Part shown: piece by piece, positions 25,104 through 30,247 of the stretch
Layout of the letters: every line of letters begins with the position of its first letter
How positions within the stretch are numbered: position 1 is the stretch's first letter
Position numbers and translations under genes: made by a program
Notes under the pieces: generated by a model
The model's input: only the letters and a program-made list of their open reading frames with translations
What the model was told of the DNA's origin: nothing
The model's database searches: none
From: Halomarina litorea
GTDB taxonomy: Archaea > Halobacteriota > Halobacteria > Halobacteriales > Haloarculaceae
DNA length: 64,000 nucleotides
Direction: 5' to 3'
Assembly: GCF_024227715.1 (NCBI RefSeq)
Contig: NZ_CP100448.1
Coordinates: 1,943,655-2,007,654, forward strand

Positions 25104-26399
25104 ATGGACGTCCACGTCTCGCAGTCGTCTGTCTCGGGGAGCGCACGCGTCCCCCCGTCGAAGAGCTACACCCACCGGGCCATCCTCGCGGCCGGGTACG
25201 CCGAGGGGGCGACGGTGCACCGACCGCTCGTCAGCGCCGACACGAAGGCGACGATGCGGGCGGTGGAGGCCTACGGCGGCGGTGTCGAGCGGTCGGCCGA
25301 CGACAGCCGCCTCACCGTCGAGGGCTTCGACGGCAGGCCCGACGTCCCCGACGACGTCATCGACTGCGCCAACAGTGGAACCACGATGCGCCTCGTCACC
25401 GGGACGGCCGCCCTCGGCGACGGCCTCACCGTCCTCACGGGCGACGGGTCGCTTCGCTCCCGACCGCAGGGACCCCTCCTCGACGCGATCGAGCAACTGG
25501 GTGGGCGCGCCGAGAGCACGCGGGGGAACGGGCAGGCCCCCCTCGTCGTCGGCGGCGCAATCGACGGCGGCCGGGTGTCGATTCCGGGCGACGTCTCCTC
25601 GCAGTACATCACCGCCCTGTTGATGGCCGGCGCGGTGACCCCGGAGGGCATCGACGTCGAACTGGAGACCGAACTCAAGAGCGCGCCGTACGTCGAGATA
25701 ACCCGCGAGGTCCTCGCCGACTTCGGCGTGGAGACCGAGCACACCGACGCGGGGTTCACCGTCCCCGGCGGGCAGTCCTACGACCCCGAGGGCGGCGAGT
25801 ACACCGTCCCCGGCGACTTCTCCTCGTCGTCGTACCTGCTCGCGATGGGCGTCCTCGCCGCCGACGGCCCCTTCGAGGTCCGAGGAGTCTACCCGAGCGC
25901 GCAGGGCGACTCGGCCATCGTCGACGTCCTCGAACGGATGGGCGCGGCCATCGAGTGGGACCGGGAGGACGGCGTCATCACCGTCGAGCGCTCCGGCCTC
26001 ACGGGCGTCGAAGTGGACGTGGGCGACACGCCGGACCTCCTGCCGACCATCGCCACCCTCGGGGCGGCCGCCGACGGCGAGACGCGCATCGTCAACGCCG
26101 AACACGTCCGCTACAAGGAGACCGACCGCGTGAGCGCGATGGCGACCGAACTGGAGAAGATGGGCGCGCGCGTCACGGAGGAACAGGACTCGCTGACCGT
26201 CCACGGCGGCGACTCGGAGCTTCGGGGAGCCGAAGTGGAAGGGTACGACGACCACCGCATCGTCATGTCGCTGGCCGTCGCGGGCCTCGTCGCCGAGGGG
26301 ACCACCACCGTCGAGGGGGCCGAACACGTCGACGTCTCGTTCCCCGGGTTCTTCGAGGTCCTCGCGGACGTCGGGGCCGAGGTCCACTGGGAGGAGTAG
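25104..26399 (+). CDS. aroA: 5-enolpyruvylshikimate-3-phosphate synthase
   Basis: This 431-residue shikimate pathway enzyme transfers enolpyruvyl from PEP to shikimate-3-phosphate. Signatures include [11 protein letters not shown] near residue 13-23, [14 protein letters not shown] near 90, and RYKETDR with the later DDHRIVMS. The length and two-domain layout are normal. It is followed tail-to-tail by a DUF6653 gene (1 bp gap); aroC lies 2.7 kb downstream on the same strand. Confidence 0.96.
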
Positions 26400-26400
26400 G

Positions 26401-26853
26401 CTACTCGGCCTCCGCCTCCGTCCGCCGAACGATTTCCGCAATCCACCACAGCTTCAGGCCCATCAGGCCGAACGTCCCCAGAACCGTCCCGAGGGGGCGC
26501 TTCCGAATCGCGGCCCAGAGCGCGTACCCCGAAACGGGCAGGTTCAGCAGGTTGAGGACGTTCGGGTAGGAGAAACTCACCGTTCCGTTTCCCGCCCGGA
26601 GCCACTCGCGTTCGGCGAGGACCCCGCGACTCATCCACGCGTCGGGGCTGTCGGGCCTCGGAAAGAGGACGGGATTGACGGCGGTGTAACCGATGGCCGC
26701 CGCCAGCAGTCGCCAGTCCCGGCGGTAGAGGGCGTACAGGAGGACGGGACCGGTCGCCAAGCGCGTCCACCCGCTCCACGGGTTCGAGTGGCGCTCCCAG
26801 AAGGTGTCGGCGAGGCGGTCCCGGCGCGTGCGGGTCCGCGTGTCGGATGCCAT
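26401..26853 (-). CDS. DUF6653 membrane-associated protein
   Basis: This 150-residue protein has hydrophobic segments near residues 30-60 (LATGPVLLYALY, LLAAAIGYTAVNPVLFP) and 95-140, and the conserved pattern FWERHSNPWSGWTR near the N-terminus and VLNLLNLPVSGYALW. I recognise it as the haloarchaeal/bacterial DUF6653 family, whose role is unknown. It sits opposite in strand between aroA and the Fe-ADH-fold gene. Confidence 0.72.
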   Translation of the reverse strand: MASDTRTRTRRDRLADTFWERHSNPWSGWTRLATGPVLLYALYRRDWRLLAAAIGYTAVNPVLFPRPDSPDAWMSRGVLAEREWLRAGNGTVSFSYPNVLNLLNLPVSGYALWAAIRKRPLGTVLGTFGLMGLKLWWIAEIVRRTEAEAE

Positions 26854-26936: not shown

Positions 26937-28124
26937 ATGGACCCAATCGGCGGTTTCGAGTACGACAACGTGGCCGGGCGCATCGCCTTCGGCCGGGGGT
27001 GCGTCGCGGACCTCTCGGAGGCCCTCGCGAATCTCGGCGCGGACCGCGCGCTGGTCGTCTGCGGGTCGAACGTCGGCGCGAACAGGGGGACGATGGACCC
27101 CATCAGAGAGGGCCTCGGCGACCGACTCGTCGGCATCTTCGACGGCACGGCCCCCGACAAGAACGCCCGCTGCGCCTTCGAGGGGCGCGAGGCGATGGCC
27201 GACCACGGCGCGGACGCACTCGTCGCGGTCGGCGGCGGGAGCAGCATCGACGTGGCTCGCGCGATGCGGGCGCTTCACGCCGACGGGCGGAGCTACGACG
27301 AGGTCAGGGAGGCGGCCGAGGAACAGGGGCGTCTCCCCATCCCCGACGCCGACTTCGTCCCCCTCGTCGCCGTGCCGACGACGCTCGCGGGCGCCGACCT
27401 CTCGACGGTCGGGTCGGTGACCTTCCGCGAGGGCGAGGCGACCCTCGGCGCGGGCTACATCGACCCCGACCTGATGCTCGAGGCGCTGTTCTACGACCCG
27501 GACCTCTTCGAGACCACCCCCGTGGGTGCGCTCGTCGGGTCGGCGATGAACGGCTTCGACAAGGGCATCGAGGCGCTGTACGCCCGCGGCGCGAACCCGC
27601 TGACCGACGCGACGTCGCTTCGCGGCCTCGCGCTCCTGCGGCCCTCGTTGCCCCACGTCGCCGACGACGACCGGCCTCCGGGGGTGATGGACAACGCCGT
27701 CGCGGGAATCGTCGCCGTCCAGTACGGACGGGCCACCCGGGACCCGGGGCTCCTGTCGCTGATTCACGCCTTCGGCCACGGCCTGCGCGAGGAGGGCGTC
27801 CAGCAGGGCGTCGCGCACGCGGTGATGGCCCCACCGGCCCTCGACTACCTCTTCGAACAGGTCGACGGCCGCCGCGATTTGCTCGCCGAATCGCTCGGCG
27901 TGGGCGACGACGAGGACCCCGCAGAGGGCGTCGTGAGCGCCGTCGCGGACGTCCGCGACGGGATGGGGCTGCCGTCGCGCCTCCGCGACCTGGAGGAGGT
28001 GGAGGAGGACGCCCTTCCCCGAATCGCCCGCGTGGTCGCCGAGGACGGCTTCATGGCGAACGCGCCGGCGGGACTGGACGCCACCGAGGAGGAACTGCTG
28101 GCGGTCCTCGAAGGCGCGTGGTGA
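26937..28124 (+). CDS. Iron-containing alcohol dehydrogenase fold, metal ligands mostly lost
   Basis: This 395-residue protein has the two-domain group III alcohol dehydrogenase/dehydroquinate synthase fold: GGGSSIDVARAM for dinucleotide binding, VPTTLAGADLST, and HAFGHGLREEG. By hand alignment with lactaldehyde reductase, the metal ligands Asp, His, His, His become N205, K209, H277 and Q290, so only one of four is kept (MNGFDKGIE replaces MDALTHAIE; QQGVAH replaces PHGVAN). A normal iron- or zinc-dependent reaction is therefore unlikely. It sits between aroA and aroC, with a winged-helix gene between it and aroC. It might be an unusual metal-free dehydrogenase or a regulatory protein. Confidence 0.78.
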   Translation: MDPIGGFEYDNVAGRIAFGRGCVADLSEALANLGADRALVVCGSNVGANRGTMDPIREGLGDRLVGIFDGTAPDKNARCAFEGREAMADHGADALVAVGGGSSIDVARAMRALHADGRSYDEVREAAEEQGRLPIPDADFVPLVAVPTTLAGADLSTVGSVTFREGEATLGAGYIDPDLMLEALFYDPDLFETTPVGALVGSAMNGFDKGIEALYARGANPLTDATSLRGLALLRPSLPHVADDDRPPGVMDNAVAGIVAVQYGRATRDPGLLSLIHAFGHGLREEGVQQGVAHAVMAPPALDYLFEQVDGRRDLLAESLGVGDDEDPAEGVVSAVADVRDGMGLPSRLRDLEEVEEDALPRIARVVAEDGFMANAPAGLDATEEELLAVLEGAW

Positions 28125-28129
28125 CCTGA

Positions 28130-28981
28130 CTACCGATCGGAACGCGATACGTCGGTGACGGTCCCGTCGGAGCCGACGCGCGCGGTCAGCGTGTCGCCGT
28201 CGAGTGTCACCTCGATGATGACAGCCTCGCCGTCGATAGTTTCGTCGGTGGTGAGGTGCGATGAGAGCCGCCACGACGGGGTCATCCCGAGGTCAATACC
28301 GTGGTCGTGGAAGAACCCCTGAGCGGCGGGGTGGTAGCGGACGGGCGTGCTGGCGGAGGTGCTGGCGAGGTCACCACAGCGCTCGCAGCGCCACTCGACG
28401 CGCGGCGGGTCCTCGTCGATGTCGAGGGAACCGGCCAGTCGTCCGGCGCAGTTGGCACAGAACCCGGCGGTGATGCGCTGGAAGAGCGTCCAGAGCCACC
28501 GATCGAACGCGCCGGGCAGTTCCTCGCGGTCGTACTGGTCGAGGGTCCCCGGCGGGAAGGAAAACTGGTTCCGGAATACCTCGCAGGCGGTACAGTGGAC
28601 GTGGACCTGTTCGTCGTCGTAGGTGACTCGGAGGGTGTTCCCGCCGCAAGACGGACAGGGGTCGTCGAGTTCGATGGGGTCCATCGAGGCGACGGCGGTG
28701 TAGGTCCCCGCGACGAGTGCGCCCACGAGCTGGAGACCCGCCAGCGTGAGTTCGTAGCCCTCGTCGTCCTGTTTGACGAACGTCCCGACGAGTTTGCCGA
28801 GGTGGTAGTTGAACTGCCCGGAGTCGCGCACCCCGACCCGTTCGCGCAGGCCGGAGAACGAGACGGGACCGTCGGACTCGACGAGGGCGCGGAGGATGCC
28901 GAGGCGCGTCTCGTTGCCCAGCAGGGCGAACATCGCCTCGGGCGGCCGGCGCTCGACGCTGACGCCGTTCGTGTCACTCAT
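28130..28981 (-). CDS. ArsR-like winged-helix protein with zinc ribbons
   Basis: This 283-residue regulator has an N-terminal winged helix (ALLGNETRLGILRALVES, VRDSGQFNYHLGKLVG) of the ArsR type, followed by two zinc-ribbon pairs: CPSCGG with CTAC, and FCANCAGR with CERCGD. It probably binds DNA; the sensor ligand is unknown. It matches a common haloarchaeal family with this architecture (DUF7351-like, name uncertain). It converges with the Fe-ADH-fold gene (5 bp gap) and is divergent from aroC. Confidence 0.85.
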   Translation of the reverse strand: MSDTNGVSVERRPPEAMFALLGNETRLGILRALVESDGPVSFSGLRERVGVRDSGQFNYHLGKLVGTFVKQDDEGYELTLAGLQLVGALVAGTYTAVASMDPIELDDPCPSCGGNTLRVTYDDEQVHVHCTACEVFRNQFSFPPGTLDQYDREELPGAFDRWLWTLFQRITAGFCANCAGRLAGSLDIDEDPPRVEWRCERCGDLASTSASTPVRYHPAAQGFFHDHGIDLGMTPSWRLSSHLTTDETIDGEAVIIEVTLDGDTLTARVGSDGTVTDVSRSDR

Positions 28982-29074: not shown

Positions 29075-30247
29075 ATGAACGGCAATCAGTTCGGGCGGCT
29101 CTTCCGCGTCACCACCTACGGCGAGAGCCACGGCGAGGCGATGGGGGCCACGATTTCGGGCTGTCCCGCGGGCGTCGAACTCGACACCGAGGCGGTCCAG
29201 CGCGAACTCGACCGGCGCAAGCCCGGCCAGTCGATGATAACGACGAGTCGGGGCGAACCCGACCACGTCGAGATTCAGTCGGGGGTTCAGGACGGTTACA
29301 CGACGGGGACGCCCATCGGGATGGTCGTCCAGAACAAGGACGCCCGCTCGGGCAAGTACGAACCGTACGTCACCGCGCCGCGCCCGAGTCACGGCGACTT
29401 CACCTACTCCGCGAAGTTCGGCACGCGCAACTGGGGCGGCGGCGGGCGCTCTTCGGCCCGCGAGACGGTCAACTGGGTCGCGGCGGGTGCGGTGGCCAGA
29501 CAGGTCCTCGAGCAGAGCGAGTACGACGTGCAGGTGAAAGCCCACGTCAACCAGATCGGCGACATCGAGGCCCCCGAGGTCACCTTCGAGGAGATGCTCG
29601 AACACACCGAGGAGAACGAGGTGCGCTGTGCCCACCCCGAGACGGCCGAGGCGATGCGCGAGCGTATCGACCAGTACCAGCAGGAGGGCGACTCCATCGG
29701 CGGGGCCATCTACTTCGAGGCGCGCGGCGTCCCCCGCGGACTCGGCGCACCCCGTTTCGACTCCTTCCCGGCGCGCCTGGGACAGGCGCTCATGGCCGTC
29801 CCCGCGACGACGGCCTTCGAGTTCGGTCTCGGCCGGGACGCGCGCTCCGTGACTGGGTCCGAGCGAAACGAGGACTGGGAGTTCGACGAGGACGGCGACC
29901 CCCGGCCCGTCGCCAACGACCACGGCGGCCTGCAGGGCGGCATCACGACGGGCGAACCCATCTACGGCGAAGTGACGCTCCACGCGCCCACGTCCATCCC
30001 GAAGAAACAGCGGACCGTGGACTGGGAGACGCGCGAGGAGAAGGAGATTCAGGTCGTGGGCCGTCACGACCCCGTCCTGCCGCCACGCGGCGTCCCCGTC
30101 GTGGAGGCGATGTGCTACCTCACCGTCCTCGACTTCATGTTGCTCGGCGGGCGCATCAACCCCGATCGACTGGACGCTGACGTCGGCCAGTACGACACCG
30201 ACTACCACCCGCGCAGTCCGGAGAACGTCGCACGGGACGAGGAGTAG
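29075..30247 (+). CDS. aroC: Chorismate synthase
   Basis: This 390-residue FMN-dependent enzyme makes chorismate from EPSP, the last step of the shikimate pathway. Signatures are GESHGEAMGATISGCPAG near the N-terminus, QNKDARSGKYEPYVTAPRP, the NWGGGGRSSARETVNWVAAG region, and the C-terminal RHDPVLPPRGVPVVEAM. It starts MNGNQFGRLFRVTTYGE and is 19 bp before the UDG gene. Confidence 0.97.
   Translation: MNGNQFGRLFRVTTYGESHGEAMGATISGCPAGVELDTEAVQRELDRRKPGQSMITTSRGEPDHVEIQSGVQDGYTTGTPIGMVVQNKDARSGKYEPYVTAPRPSHGDFTYSAKFGTRNWGGGGRSSARETVNWVAAGAVARQVLEQSEYDVQVKAHVNQIGDIEAPEVTFEEMLEHTEENEVRCAHPETAEAMRERIDQYQQEGDSIGGAIYFEARGVPRGLGAPRFDSFPARLGQALMAVPATTAFEFGLGRDARSVTGSERNEDWEFDEDGDPRPVANDHGGLQGGITTGEPIYGEVTLHAPTSIPKKQRTVDWETREEKEIQVVGRHDPVLPPRGVPVVEAMCYLTVLDFMLLGGRINPDRLDADVGQYDTDYHPRSPENVARDEE

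Follow-up and report, generated by a model that had tools for sequence, protein, structure and literature searches.

Invariant replacement of three metal ligands in a haloarchaeal iron-alcohol-dehydrogenase-fold family, a candidate metal-independent reductase linked to aromatic ring cleavage

The window analysed here is a stretch of 64,000 nucleotides from the genome of Halomarina litorea. It carries an ORF for a 395-aa protein of the iron-containing alcohol dehydrogenase (Fe-ADH) fold (26937..28124, +; start ATG at 26937, stop TGA at 28122-28124), a member of the haloarchaeal family that we call N/K/H/Q after its residues at the metal-ligand positions. As an earlier note on this DNA had stated, the ORF lies between aroA (EPSP synthase, 25104..26399, +) and aroC (chorismate synthase, 29075..30247, +), two neighbours that stand outside the function proposed below. 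Each gap also holds one gene on the opposite strand, namely a DUF6653 gene after aroA (26401..26853, -) and an HTH regulator (DUF7347/DUF7351; 28130..28981, -) before aroC, which makes a shared aroA/aroC operon unlikely in Halomarina litorea. At three other loci (L034, L035 and L037) a phosphodiesterase-like gene (PF01663) occupies the place that DUF6653 takes in the window, and the spot between aroA and the Fe-ADH-like gene thus collects varied genes.

The protein belongs to the type III ADH superfamily by its fold and by full-length matches of both domains, PF00465 (E 4e-28) and the C-terminal PF25137 (E 2e-12), above the curated Pfam cut-off. None of the NCBIfam models scored above its cut-off, and the top ones, those for 4-hydroxybutyrate dehydrogenase and lactaldehyde reductase, reached about one-fifth of the required score. 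An AlphaFold2 model built from an alignment of the protein's own orthologues has a mean pLDDT of 94 and a pTM of 0.92. FucO and the methanol dehydrogenases are its nearest fold matches, and maleylacetate reductases (MARs) follow slightly lower. Group III ADHs (FucO 1rrm/2bi4, B. methanolicus MDH) are the best matches in sequence and fold, with TM-scores of ~0.8-0.86 and the same coenzyme domain; matches by sequence and fold also include the MAR structures 3jzd, 3hl0, 3w5s and 3iv7. AroB, glycerol-1-phosphate dehydrogenase and glycerol dehydrogenase share the superfamily fold. The earlier statement that the fold is that of dehydroquinate synthase holds for this superfamily-wide resemblance, but not for anything closer: PF01761 and the AroB models do not match the protein, neither AroB nor glycerol-1-phosphate dehydrogenase was among the sequence matches to solved structures, and glycerol dehydrogenase was matched by profile at E 1e-6 or weaker only.

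Alignment by phmmer with E. coli FucO placed Asn205 (AAC, 27549..27551, +) at the Asp ligand, Lys209 (AAG, 27561..27563, +) at the first His ligand, which corresponds to His172 of the MAR PcpE, His277 (27765..27767, +) at the His263 ligand (PcpE His237), and Gln290 (27804..27806, +) at the last His ligand (FucO His277, PcpE His251). His277 is therefore the sole ligand position that remains His, and the hand alignment of the earlier note, which had read these four residues against Asp, His, His and His, agrees with ours. The motifs concerned are SAMNGFDKGIE, IHAFGHG and VQQGVAH, against TGVDALTHAIE, VHGMAHP and TPHGVAN in FucO. From H277 to Q290 the loop of the window copy is one residue shorter; most orthologues have a spacing of 14, like FucO. 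In human ADHFE1 the ligands are Asp242/His246/His330/His357 (PMC5125639). Further residues of interest are Gly43 at the coenzyme-preference position (27063..27065, +; FucO Asp39, position 81 of human ADHFE1), Lys75 (27159..27161, +), which is absent at that position from the MAR and Fe-ADH rows compared, the pyrophosphate-binding coenzyme-site motif GGGSSIDV (residues 99-106, 27231..27254, +), His281 (27777..27779, +; FucO His267, GraC His243), a putative substrate or catalytic His, and His294 (27816..27818, +), which is equivalent to the second His in the MAR motif PHAETH.

These substitutions are a fixed feature of the family. N, K, H and Q are invariant in 30/30 aligned orthologues, drawn from many families of the order, and so are T71, K75, G43, H281 and H294. 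When duplicates were removed, all 84 distinct haloarchaeal sequences kept N/K/H/Q in place of the Asp, His, His, His set of metal-dependent type III ADHs (83 recognised by a regular expression and one by eye). The replacement of three ligands out of four, and the conservation of the N/K/Q triple in haloarchaeal orthologues that had been put forward for checking, are both borne out by these counts. In two distant members among the 84, L144 and L165, His281 is replaced by Gln and Asn respectively with N/K/H/Q retained, suggesting that His281 is less constrained than K209. Values of dN/dS against the nearest relatives were 0.34-0.37, which indicates purifying selection. Misalignment or sequencing error cannot account for such invariance, and decay is excluded by the residue conservation and dN/dS; the earlier view that the intact fold motifs (GGGSSIDV, VPTTLAG) speak against decay fits both of these and the confident predicted structure.

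The distribution of the signature is haloarchaeal. Within the window's order, 21/53 genomes contained the exact DNA motif for MNGFDK, against 0/242 genomes from the rest of the phylum, and a scan of 84,980 species found no N/K pair in bacterial relatives. A 46%-identical fragment (L123:2971-3330), carried by a 3.3-kb contig that bears the label Bradymonadaceae (isolate LUM.15), probably comes from a mis-binned haloarchaeal contig, the sample series being shared with the haloarchaeal bins LUM.6 and LUM.44. As a case separate from this family, a Burkholderiales Fe-ADH-like clade (L095, L100 and L102; e.g. L100:8001-9152) has apparently lost four of four ligands (N, L/M, M/T, N), with motifs such as SINTFSMAIE ... 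ITTVLGH ... DNG.

Comparison with MARs (cd08177; PcpE, TfdF, GraC/3w5s, 3hl0, 3jzd) shows both likeness and difference. The fold is the same, the Asp ligand has likewise become Asn, with N205 invariant here, the HxxxH motif and a further downstream His sit in equivalent places, the 'PTT-AG' loop lacks one residue relative to metal-binding Fe-ADHs, and a PcpA-type dioxygenase is the partner. However, His172 of MARs is replaced by Lys, His251 by Gln, His236 by a hydrophobic residue and the essential Lys238 by Ala278, the NADH motif LSTPEQ by a CGSNVG-like sequence, and identity is only ~25%. PcpE needs His172 and Lys238, and its acidic substrate has been proposed to be held by clustered basic residues (PMC5741723). 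When this numbering is carried along the aligned MAR, His172 falls on K209 and Lys238 on A278, giving a Lys at 172 and none at 238, and the MAR signature LHHKLCHTLGG reads HAFGHG. Filing the protein as a plain MAR is excluded by these essential residues.

In a tree of 52 proteins the N/K/H/Q family formed one clade (100/100) on a branch apart from MARs and metal-binding ADHs, with a small haloarchaeal N/H/H/H group as its sister (99/97); a constraint that joined the family with MARs was not rejected (p-AU 0.08, 0.08, 0.32). The N/H/H/H paralogues (L135-L137; G003, G005, G054; bootstrap 99 for the sister branch) share the Asn at the Asp position and an Asp three residues past it (N-A-L-D-H in theirs, N-G-F-D-K here), but their three remaining ligand positions are still His, and they are 32-35% identical. 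The D-to-N change seems to have come first, with H-to-K and H-to-Q later. The paralogues L135, L136 and L137 lie in catabolic surroundings, among genes for acyl-CoA ligase, acyl-CoA dehydrogenase and transporters.

MARs are active without metal, and this has been explained by the change of Asp to Asn or Arg (PMC5125639). Group III ADHs carry four of four metal ligands, whereas one of four is left here; with Asn as in MARs, plus Lys and Gln at two of the His positions, a classical metal site is unlikely and a metal-free protein is plausible. The metal-free function that the earlier note had entertained thus gains ground, both from the fixation of N/K/H/Q and from the same D-to-N change in related metal-free MARs. 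For the coenzyme, Asp at the preference position marks NAD-specific FucO-type enzymes, and Gly occurs there in those that bind NADP (PMC5125639). Since Gly43 stands where group III ADHs have Asp39, use of NADP(H) is likely in this subfamily. Judged by its residues, the family is probably a haloarchaeal subfamily distinct from MARs, metal-independent and with an active-site signature of its own.

Gene neighbourhoods point to a possible pathway. At 18/77 distinct loci there is an MhqO/PcpA-type gene no more than 4 kb away, on the same strand at 16, and within 115 bp at 8 of these; the other 59 have none in that range. The Fe-ADH-like gene often appears to share an operon with such neighbours, and it lies in an apparent operon in Natronococcus and Halomicroarcula. 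These dioxygenase-linked loci span ten named genera, all outside the window's genus, and the chance expectation is ~0.2 loci, a rough estimate that assumes slightly more than one such gene per ~3.5 Mb genome and to which related loci contribute non-independently. The MhqO/PcpA-type protein is a dioxygenase of the VOC fold, and among solved structures MhqO (3oaj, E 7e-87) and PcpA (4huz, E 2e-46) match it best. Bacterial pentachlorophenol degradation uses PcpA as its 2,6-dichlorohydroquinone dioxygenase, which feeds the MAR PcpE, the last enzyme of that pathway (PMC5741723). A gene for a beta-keto-acid cleavage enzyme (BKACE, PF05853) is nearby at 11/77 distinct loci, often divergent from the dioxygenase (L064, L078, L151, L152), with matches that fall short of the NCBIfam cut-offs for specificity towards 3-oxoadipate or 3-keto-5-aminohexanoate. 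An MhqD-like esterase is present in 3/77 loci, including a dioxygenase-esterase-reductase run in Halorientalis (L066). The association recurred in genomes added as a check (dioxygenase 3/15, BKACE 4/15).

Mere co-occurrence in a genome is uninformative here, because MhqO-like genes are common (44/59 haloarchaeal genomes). The genome of Halomarina litorea itself has one dioxygenase homologue, distant from the locus (G000:C1:429830), and no BKACE was found in it. Searches of the literature found nothing specific on haloarchaeal hydroquinone cleavage or on BKACE, and in the literature searched maleylacetate reductase and haloarchaea were mentioned together only in one paper, on another subject. 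These neighbourhoods tie the N/K/H/Q family more closely to the cleavage of aromatic rings than to their biosynthesis.

We propose that the family is an active, metal-independent NAD(P)H reductase, similar to MARs, which serves ring-cleavage products in many haloarchaea; we give this reading, with the substrate we infer, about an even chance of being right. In such a route, the MhqO/PcpA-type dioxygenase would cleave a hydroquinone-type ring and the N/K/H/Q reductase would take the product, the simplest reaction being maleylacetate to 3-oxoadipate, which the adjacent BKACE could then split. The GGGS motif and Gly43 would bind NAD(P)H, which would transfer hydride to the unsaturated keto-diacid. 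The substrate may be polarised without a metal, in a pocket of N205, K209, H277, H281, Q290 and H294 that would bind carboxylates and supply the proton, and K209, which occupies the position of the essential MAR residue His172, may act as the acid or as a carboxylate binder. In Halomarina litorea, where the dioxygenase homologue is distant and no BKACE was found, the product would leave by another route or the substrate would differ. A bolder form of the proposal, which we advance only tentatively, is a metal-free Fe-ADH site specific to haloarchaea, in which Lys at a former ligand position replaces the metal (or the His172/Lys238 pair of MARs), within an undescribed archaeal route of hydroquinone ring cleavage that comprises MhqO/PcpA-type dioxygenase, reductase and BKACE.

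A metal-free NAD(P)H reductase might instead act on another small carbonyl or enoate, for example in quinone or electrophile detoxification or in acid catabolism, with the dioxygenase linked only through a shared stress or catabolic regulon. The variety of the neighbourhoods fits such a role, as queC/queE-like, gyrAB, mch, acyl-CoA ligase and acyl-CoA dehydrogenase genes recur and OsmC-like and ketopantoate-reductase-like genes are nearby at some loci, and bacterial MhqO/MhqD-type genes serve quinone resistance. We nevertheless find it rather unlikely, because the tightest recurrent same-strand link is with the ring-cleaving dioxygenase, BKACE recurs beside it, and both fit the steps that flank the MAR reaction. 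An ordinary alcohol or aldehyde dehydrogenase with metal still bound at a rearranged site, such as H277/H281/H294 plus water or N205/H277/Q290, seems improbable to us. Lys, invariant at one of the ligand positions, would be unfavourable beside a metal, MARs with the same His pattern are metal-free and H281 is replaced in 2/84 sequences, although H277, H281 and H294 are otherwise conserved, Gln and Asn are able to ligate metals, and glycerol dehydrogenases, which share the fold, bind their metal through other ligands (PMC5125639). The non-catalytic role that the earlier note had allowed would make the protein a regulatory Fe-ADH paralogue similar to ErcA. Loss of the ligands and a match to the NCBIfam ErcA model (NF041833) agree with it, but that match of 93 bits is far under the cut-off of 550, the coenzyme motif and the new polar active-site residues are strictly conserved, which disfavours any non-catalytic role, and no conserved adjacent partner regulator was seen outside the window's genus; we regard it as very unlikely.

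A catalytic or regulatory role in aromatic amino-acid biosynthesis, suggested earlier from the position between two shikimate genes, was likewise weighed and is in our opinion highly improbable. In its favour, aroA is upstream on the same strand at 10/77 distinct loci and aroC downstream at 8/77, in the window's genus and a few others, and the gap to aroA is ~70-100 bp in L032 and L033. However, the aroA-aroC pair is widespread by itself: aroA and aroC share a strand within 7.5 kb of each other in 30/56 haloarchaeal genomes, frequently almost touching, and among these 30 the Fe-ADH-like gene separates the two in 4, each belonging to the window's genus, lies elsewhere in 13 and is absent from 13, so that it by no means always neighbours both. 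The order aroA-gene-aroC also occurs in L156, from another family, and is thus not quite exclusive to the genus. All 40 good-quality genomes have aroA and aroC, but at most 30/40 have the Fe-ADH-like gene, which is thus absent from at least one-quarter of them. Moreover, the genome of Halomarina litorea encodes the unrelated DHQ synthase II (PF01959, E 3e-137), and no match to DHQ_synthase PF01761 was found in it. The neighbourhoods, the opposite-strand genes in the gaps and DHQ synthase II without AroB leave a shikimate role poorly supported, and neighbourhood together with distribution led us to reject it for the family.

If the reading as a metal-independent, ring-cleavage-linked reductase is true, 'iron-containing alcohol dehydrogenase' would be the wrong automatic name for a widespread archaeal family, and MARs would not be the only proteins of the Fe-ADH fold to have lost the metal. 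The conserved Lys and Gln substitutions would then provide a clean mutational test of metal-free reduction on this fold, and a branch of aromatic ring cleavage would be indicated in haloarchaea.
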